This document shows positions 46,053 through 47,392 of a stretch of DNA of 64,000 nt, piece after piece. The notes beneath the pieces are model-generated. The model did not search any database. It had not been told where the DNA came from and saw nothing but the letters and a program-made list of their open reading frames with translations. Each line of letters begins with the position of its first letter. The first letter of the stretch is position 1. The translations under genes and the position numbers were made by a program. This DNA comes from Nonomuraea turcica (GTDB lineage Bacteria > Actinomycetota > Actinomycetes > Streptosporangiales > Streptosporangiaceae). The DNA lies in the NCBI RefSeq assembly GCF_030718205.1, contig NZ_JAUZQF010000023.1, positions 1-64,000 of the forward strand, given 5' to 3'.

Positions 46053-46215
46053 GGCTTTTGTCCCCCTAACGGGGTACTTCTGCCACGTCGGCGGCCGACC
46101 AAACACTCCGTATCCGCCTGTTTCACTTCGGTTACATTACTTGACTCCCCGTCCAATAGTTCGCAAGGCTCACTGCTGCATCGGGGGGCGACAACCGACG
46201 AATTCGGGAGCCTTC

Positions 46216-46665
46216 ATGGCAAGAGCGCGACGTCTCGCGGCCGCTGGAGCGGTCACGGCATTCATGGTCGCAGGAGTGAGCCTGGCGGCGGGCATCGGCA
46301 CCGCCTCCGCACAGTCCGGCCCTGAACTGCCGGACGTGGTCCCCACCTGCCTCCTTCCACTGCCGATCCTCTGTGACGAACCCCCGCCGGACTCGAGCAC
46401 CCCCGCACCCGAGGATTCCTGGTCGGGCGAGCCCGCGCCGGACGAGGAGCCCTGGCCCCACCAGCCGGGACCCGAGGCGAATGAGGATCCGTGGCGGCCG
46501 GCGGGCGAGCGCGAGCACAAGGTGCCCGAGGGGCATCCGGAGACCGGCGGGGGCGGGCTCACGCAGGACGGCGCGGTGTGGCCGTTCGCGCTGGGCGGTA
46601 CCGCGCTGCTGACCGGGGCCGGGCTGGCCGGGTTCGCGGTACGGCGCCGCGGGGATGCCGCCTAG
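46216..46665 (+). CDS. Secreted sortase substrate with HPETG sorting signal
   Basis: 149 residues. Signal peptide to about residue 32 (ASAQS), a Pro/Glu/Asp-rich stalk with a Cys pair (TCLLPLPILC, 45-53), then a cell-wall sorting signal: HPETG at 107-111 followed by GGG, a hydrophobic helix (about 121-142) and RRR tail. Only the first position differs from LPxTG. The next gene, overlapping by 11 bases, is a class F sortase, so this is probably its dedicated substrate. No binding domain seen; it may be a short wall-exposed linker. Confidence 0.82.
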   Translation: MARARRLAAAGAVTAFMVAGVSLAAGIGTASAQSGPELPDVVPTCLLPLPILCDEPPPDSSTPAPEDSWSGEPAPDEEPWPHQPGPEANEDPWRPAGEREHKVPEGHPETGGGGLTQDGAVWPFALGGTALLTGAGLAGFAVRRRGDAA

Positions 46666-47392
46666 GGTGGCCGGCAGTTCGCGCGCTCCCGCTGAAGCGG
46701 CCGGTGGGTCGCGCGCTCCTGCCGACGCGACGCGCGGGACACGTGCTCGCGGAAATCGGCTGATCCTGGCCATCGCGGGCGTCATCACCGTGGCCGGGGC
46801 GCTGCTGATCTGGTCCGGGCTGAGCGGCATCGTGGGCGGCGAGCCCGAGACGACGCCGGTCGCGACCGCACGCCCGGCGCCGATCGCTGGCGTGCCGCTC
46901 TCCAAGATGGCCAGGCCCATGGAGGCCGCCCGTCCCACCGCCGTCTACATCCCGTCCATCGGCGTCGCCGCGCCGCTGACGGAGCTAGGCCTGGACACGC
47001 GCGGCGCCATCGAGAACCCGCCGCTCGACGCCCCGAACCTGGCCGGCTGGTACCGCTACGGCCCCGTCCCCGGCCAGCGTGGCGCCGCCGTGATCACCGG
47101 GCATCTCGACACCAGGAGCGGCCCCGCCGTCTTCGCCCGCCTCAAGGAGGTCAAGCGCGGCGACCAGGTCCAGGTGCTGCGGGCCGACCGCTCGGTGGCC
47201 GTCTTCGTCGTCGACAAGGTCGAGCACACGCCGAAGACGCACTTCCCCGCCAAGAAGGTCTACGGCAAGCTCGCCTATCCGGGGCTGCGGCTGGTGACCT
47301 GCGGCGGGGCGTTCGACCGGCAGGCGCACAGCTACCGGGACAACACGATCGTGTACGCGCACCTGGCGGCCCCGTACTATCCCAAAGGCTGA
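46655..47392 (+). CDS. Class F sortase
   Basis: 245 residues. N-terminal Ala/Gly/Arg-rich segment, membrane helix at about 36-60, then a sortase domain. Catalytic His150 in VITGHLDT, Cys216 in LVTCGGAF and Arg228 in HSYRDNTIV are present in order, as in actinobacterial class F enzymes (YIPSIGVAAPLTELGL start). It cleaves sorting motifs and attaches proteins to the cell wall or to each other. Starts within the end of its presumed substrate gene. Its stop abuts, with no gap, the stop of the convergent acyl-CoA dehydrogenase gene. Confidence 0.92.
   Translation: MPPRVAGSSRAPAEAAGGSRAPADATRGTRARGNRLILAIAGVITVAGALLIWSGLSGIVGGEPETTPVATARPAPIAGVPLSKMARPMEAARPTAVYIPSIGVAAPLTELGLDTRGAIENPPLDAPNLAGWYRYGPVPGQRGAAVITGHLDTRSGPAVFARLKEVKRGDQVQVLRADRSVAVFVVDKVEHTPKTHFPAKKVYGKLAYPGLRLVTCGGAFDRQAHSYRDNTIVYAHLAAPYYPKG

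Follow-up and report, generated by a model that had tools for sequence, protein, structure and literature searches.

A class F sortase of Nonomuraea turcica with its likely dedicated substrate, and HPETG as a lineage form of the class F sorting signal

The locus studied here raises the question of whether a small, putatively secreted protein that ends in HPETG and is encoded next to a sortase carries an LPxTG signal with a single residue changed, or a sorting signal of another kind. Both genes lie on the forward strand of the window, by which we mean the whole stretch of 64,000 nucleotides that was analysed, and the first-pass annotation had read them as an overlapping sortase-substrate pair in which His in place of Leu might reflect sortase-specific recognition.

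The upstream gene (46216-46665) starts with ATG and encodes a predicted sortase substrate of 149 amino acids, an assignment based on the open reading frame and on the 36 homologues described below. From N- to C-terminus its product shows a signal-peptide-like start, Cys45 and Cys53, a stalk rich in Pro and Glu, then VPEGHPETGGGG, a hydrophobic helix and RRR, so that signal peptide, motif ending in T-G, hydrophobic helix and basic tail follow one another in the order general for sortase substrates; the ending in HPETG, helix and RRR that had been noticed earlier is seen directly in the reading frame. The signal peptide (residues 1-32; 46216-46311) and the helix were recognised by eye, and the former, which is conserved in the homologue alignment, is likely cut after ASA according to the usual cleavage rule. 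Two cysteines enclose the hydrophobic loop Cys45-LLPLPIL-Cys53 (46348-46374), and both are invariant in 36/36 loci, which bears out the Cys pair previously pointed out in the stalk. The sorting signal K-V-P-E-G-H-P-E-T-G-G-G-G (46519-46557), in which HPETG occupies residues 107-111 (46534-46548) with a predicted cut between T110 and G111, is followed by the membrane helix and RRR tail (46579-46650), where the homologue alignment shows W122, G127, L131, G134, L137, G139 and A141 to be invariant and R143 and R144 to be present in at least 90% of sequences. Further invariant columns include C45, C53, W93, P95, E98, P104, G106, P108, T110, G111 and G113, and the conserved signal therefore extends well upstream of the pentapeptide. 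A Pfam scan of the substrate returned no family at E<=1 (the filters of the program drop most matches above about 0.1), in agreement with the earlier remark that the stalk has no binding domain. An LPxTG substrate of class A or C type would have Leu at P4 and a Pfam anchor domain, whereas P4 is His in this protein and a Pfam family at E<=1 is lacking. The closest model is NF058571 (GVDTG_CTERM), which matches residues 103-145 with 19 bits, and with 21.9 bits in a search of the genome, in both cases below its cut-off of 29. A chaplin-like surface protein, a resemblance that we presumed from the paired cysteines only, was rejected as no chaplin domain was found in the substrate (Pfam, E<=1).

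The downstream gene (46655-47392) encodes a protein of 245 amino acids counted from its ATG (241 if GTG 46667 is the start), which passes the class F sortase model NF033748 (209.2 bits against a cut-off of 166; E 2.4e-62) and scores 81.3 bits against PF04203 (cut-off 26.6), whereas it fails the class E model NF033747 (22.4 bits against 160). The structural model has a pLDDT of 93.4 over residues 66-245, and its PDB fold matches, 50 listed of 391, are by title sortases of classes A, C, D and E, with no class F structure recognised by title among those 50. The catalytic His150 (47102-47104) is found in 76/76 aligned sortases, and so is the catalytic Cys216 of the LVTC motif (47300-47302), although the latter count is partly built in because the rows had been chosen with a [TSV]CGG pattern; the same selection underlies the site comparison and the tree described below, from both of which L046, L081, L095, L126 and L128 were lost. 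Lys194, in the beta6/beta7 loop, is invariant in the 76 aligned class F domains, and Asn230 (47342-47344; Asn in 75/76) stands where other sortase classes have the catalytic Arg. In five class E sequences, matched by eye, Arg opens the corresponding strand ([QE]R[LY]IV[YH]G versus DNTIVYA), and the change from Arg to Asn in actinobacterial class F sortases is already in print, in a passage of PMC6998099. Judged from its sequence the enzyme is a class F sortase, with predicted transpeptidase activity.

With ATG 46655 as the start of the sortase the two genes overlap by 11 bases, and with the in-frame GTG 46667 they would be separated by a 1-base gap; since this second start is also possible, the statement that the sortase begins inside the substrate holds for the ATG and lapses for the GTG, and the overlap is likely but unproven. 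The arrangement itself is constant, as a sortase on the same strand downstream of the substrate was found in 36/36 species-level loci, and together with the class F score this upholds the pair as originally described. The two genes probably form one transcription unit. Distances within the pair vary, and in five loci (L033, L034, L045, L046, L050) the sortase frame has its nearest start codon 454 to 1037 bases further on, which in L045 is explained by a sortase that matches in two frames. This locus (the same place as L077) has an intact HPETG substrate beside the two-frame sortase, reflecting either a frameshift or a sequencing error, and its row, which forms a long branch in the tree for the same reason, was kept. 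Upstream of the substrate gene, a non-coding block (46121-46171) is strongly conserved in 40 aligned upstream regions, from Nonomuraea to Planobispora, and may serve as a promoter or operator. A search of the genome with its 27-base core gave one match at <=3 mismatches (reversed control 0), and a regulon shared through this block was rejected as no second copy occurs in the genome itself at that threshold. Between 46165 and 46214 the leader is flanked by AAGGCTC and GAGCCTT, which span the probable ribosome-binding region and are kept in most of those relatives whose leader is long. A leader hairpin between GGCTC and GAGCC was considered and rejected: two-sided change was seen at 0/5 predicted pairs, so the structure is unsupported, and the pieces as such are conserved.

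When 98 relatives were searched with the substrate, 42 genomes gave matches at E<=0.001, some of them weak and partial only, and 36 species-level loci whose substrates are clear were retained, that of the window among them. The motif, on whose conservation the first-pass annotation had made its reading depend, is HPETG in 31 of these loci, YPETG in one (L050), APQTG in one and PPQTG in three, and 30 of the 36 homologues match NF058571 at E<=0.01. More distant homologues in Planobispora and Planomonospora carry GAPQTG (4/4), each with a downstream sortase. Sortases encoded next to such substrates group in a single clade (39 rows; support 100/99). Within it the GHPETG group is surrounded by rows with GAPQTG and GPPQTG, which suggests a derived state for HPETG; L044 and L057, both Q-type, are placed within the GHPETG group by a weak branch (82/66).

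What a class F sortase usually has beside it was assessed at 60 loci of the order, which were hand-picked from the matches listed, mostly better-scoring ones and therefore non-random, using a rule that asked for P-x-G-x-x-x-[TAS]-G, a helix and a basic tail on the same strand. An upstream protein of this kind occurs at 43/60 loci, a count that is not an independent test because the rule was written after a first look at the loci; at the control positions the same rule gave 3 on the opposite strand upstream, 1 on the same strand downstream and 0 on the opposite strand downstream. Including four signals with Ala or Glu for Gly and one missed by the hydrophobicity filter, such a signal is found at 48/60 order loci, and, judged by eye, a same-strand neighbour of this type is found at 23/29 loci of the phylum, leaving 12 and 6 loci, respectively, with none. 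LPxTG followed by a sorting tail was found upstream at 0/60 order loci and downstream at one, and LAxTG at none. At three of the 12 (L109, L114, L118) a signal-bearing frame with P-I-G-G-V-A-A-G lies upstream on the opposite strand, and a divergent arrangement is possible there. The order and phylum loci together yielded 71 signals, with P-x-G-x-[A/V/P]-x-[T/A]-G-x-G as their usual frame: Pro at P7 (68), Gly at P5 (66), Gly at P1' (71) and Gly at P3' (65), with Ala (29), Val (26), Pro (8), Ile (6) or Met (2) at P3 and Thr (56), Ala (12) or Ser (3) at P1. P4 is Gly in 51, Ala in 10, Ser in 4 and Pro in 2, with Thr, Trp, Arg and His once each and Leu never, and for this reason HPETG is best seen as a dialect of the class F signal. 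An origin from LPxTG by a change of Leu to His was accordingly rejected, and the description "His instead of Leu" has to be given up, the usual residue being Gly. Compared with the GVDTG model, two of ten neighbour proteins pass the cut-off, four score below it and four, a Frankia protein included, are unmatched at E<=0.01. From these alignments HPETG is the form that the class F signal takes in the Nonomuraea lineage, close to the GVDTG domain but under its cut-off. One apparent LPxTG counter-example, an LPKTG gene downstream of a class F sortase (L131), was set aside as that sortase has its own upstream substrate with TPLGGAATG. Directly after the LPKTG gene a further membrane protein, sortase-like by eye, begins, and there the stretch ends.

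The signal is also single. A profile built from 21 C-termini and run against 52 Nonomuraea-group genomes found a single strong match in each of 36 genomes (E 1.4e-33 to 2.6e-26), two in none and no strong match in the remaining 16, and the next-best matches, some of which are other class F signals, begin at 1.5e-4. Within the 12.66-Mb genome of the window, CAYCCNGARACNGGNG, the DNA coding for HPETG, has 10 exact matches (reversed control 0), of which only the window copy leads into a C-terminal membrane helix and basic tail. Further HPETG substrates in this genome were rejected, the other 9/10 matches having no sorting tail, and HPxTG with other x residues was covered by the profiles only; of the scan for HPxTG proteins that had been proposed, the part for HPETG thus returned one sorting tail, that of the window. 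Six sortases were found in the genome, all above the class F cut-off, and the five others might act on the HPETG signal as well. Beside another of them, a secreted protein of 180 amino acids (L007, contig C45, 1480-2022, reverse strand) carries four tandem [AP]PR[GS]G[VI]DTG[VL]GG signals, mostly with poly-Asp between them and with a helix after the last only, an architecture that would offer several possible sites for cleavage or linkage. A further protein of this genome (L008, C49:169614) has TPEGGVDTGAGG at its end and scores above the GVDTG cut-off, with no sortase among the open reading frames listed there.

Taken together, our data make it very probable that the class F sortase of the window is dedicated to one substrate, the protein encoded beside it. 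The P-E-T-G core, the membrane helix and RRR would also suit an LPxTG signal that differs at one residue and is used by the general (housekeeping) sortase, and a secondary source (PMC13257024, in part) reports LPXTG for the class F enzyme of C. acnes. Such a reading nevertheless seems extremely improbable, as Leu is absent at P4 from 71/71 signals, the invariant P104 and G106 lie outside the LPxTG pentapeptide, each genome has a single strong signal, and no class E sortase was found at E<=1e-10 in 7/52 genus genomes, that of the window among them. The substrate might instead be merely tail-anchored and retained in the membrane, beside a sortase that is there by chance, and the report in PMC13251363 (in part) that a quadruple class F mutant of Actinoplanes had no phenotype under the tested conditions could be taken in its favour; this too is improbable, given a linkage of 36/36 with invariant T-G and flanking residues and a like linkage at most of the loci sampled in the order and the phylum.

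A separate matter is whether the dedicated sortase reads the His. P3 follows the lineage of the sortase, with 14 changes on a tree of 74 rows (the Nonomuraea/Planobispora clade reduced to four rows, with L089, L088 and one own-genome row added) versus 31.5 after shuffling and 0/200 shuffles as low, although this agreement may reflect co-inheritance because the genes are linked. Tracking of the sortase tree by P1 was rejected: Thr versus Ala/Ser requires 11 changes versus 12.2 shuffled, with 107/500 (Thr) and 91/500 (Ala/Ser) shuffles as low. P4, the position of the His, is looser than P3 in these comparisons, with His fixed in one lineage of Nonomuraea. An S4 pocket fitted to His (combined with Glu at P2) that excluded both Gly and Leu would make the His a specificity determinant and would agree with the pairing of H with E in 31/36 loci, of Y with E in one and of A or P with Q in the other four, as well as with sortase sites 239-240, which are A-P in 31/31 H-type rows (one of them beside YPETG) and R, L or H followed by A in 7/7 Q-type rows; sites 175, 192, 199 and 206 also differ in frequency between the two types. 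However, a single origin inside Nonomuraea is possible, in which case these site differences may reflect shared descent, the relative L050 has Tyr, P4 is variable over the 71 signals, and five close sortases of one other genus, presumably Streptomyces, stand beside GSVKTG (4) and GHVNTG (1), and we therefore regard such a pocket as doubtful. A Gly-rich protein of Frankia sp. AiPs1 (L088), whose resemblance to the substrate is confined to the sorting signal, ends in the GHPETG-bearing VIPAGHPETGAGGA. The class F-like sortase encoded downstream of it occupies a long branch elsewhere in the tree, which suggests two or more separate origins of GHPETG.

If the pair works as proposed, that is, as one sortase with one substrate of its own, the substrate would be exported, probably by Sec, and its C-terminal helix and RRR would hold it in the membrane. 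Cys216 of the sortase would then cut P-x-G-H-P-E-T↓G-x-G between Thr110 and Gly111, and the cut substrate would be joined to peptidoglycan. On the wall there would remain a short stalk that is probably disordered and contains the disulfide-type Cys loop; D-S-W-S-x-A-P repeats are present in the stalk of many relatives. By analogy with SspA, a disordered wall protein of Actinoplanes (passages in PMC13251363; its own paper is PMC13293333), our guess would be a hyphal or spore surface coat.

Known systems resemble the pair in part. The GVDTG_CTERM signal (NF058571) shares with it the C-terminal place, the P-x-G-x-x-x-T-G-x-G frame, the helix and the basic tail, but has G-V-D where the window has H-P-E. 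With the class F sortases (NF033748), whose founder is in C. acnes, the window sortase shares a score above the family cut-off, the conserved His and Cys and Asn for Arg as reported for actinobacteria (PMC6998099, in part); the C. acnes enzyme is described, in the secondary account of PMC13257024, as recognising LPXTG, whereas no such motif occurs at the window locus. The SrtE systems of Streptomyces and Actinoplanes (LAXTG or LPVTG), according to passages in PMC5148588 and PMC13251363, also anchor secreted, partly disordered proteins to the wall, but class E enzymes keep the Arg and read L-[AP]-x-T-G, and the window sortase is separated from them by its class E score. Further parallels are AMIS_11010 and AMIS_36440, encoded beside srtF1 and srtF4 of Actinoplanes missouriensis, which by their published descriptions alone are secreted proteins with a C-terminal helix and basic tail (PMC13251363, in part). 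In that paper substrates were sought by LPXTG-like pentapeptides, and these two were set aside because no known pentapeptide was found, though its authors name them as possible substrates. Passages of PMC5148588 give specificities for classes A to E and not for F, and the physiological roles of class F sortases are described as unknown in part of the 2026 paper PMC13251363. No paper on the subject was recognised by title in the literature on HPETG, on GVDTG or on Nonomuraea and sortase.

More broadly, we think it rather likely that actinobacterial class F sortases rely on their own sorting code, P-x-G-x-[A/V/I/P]-x-[T/A]-↓G-x-G, which LPxTG-like pentapeptide searches would not see, that most of these sortases are dedicated to a neighbour, that lineages differ in dialects at P4-P2 (GHPETG, GAPQTG, EGADTG, GGVATG, GSVKTG), and that Asn for Arg goes with this code. 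The profile of 71 signals provides a concrete search motif and ready substrate-enzyme pairs, among which the window pair is a good first case, having one strong signal per genome (36 genomes) beside one sortase. If confirmed, signals like PxGHPETGGGG might be usable as separate sortase ligation tags. For the family itself, such a code would mean that class F comprises many private anchoring lines, as against one housekeeping line.
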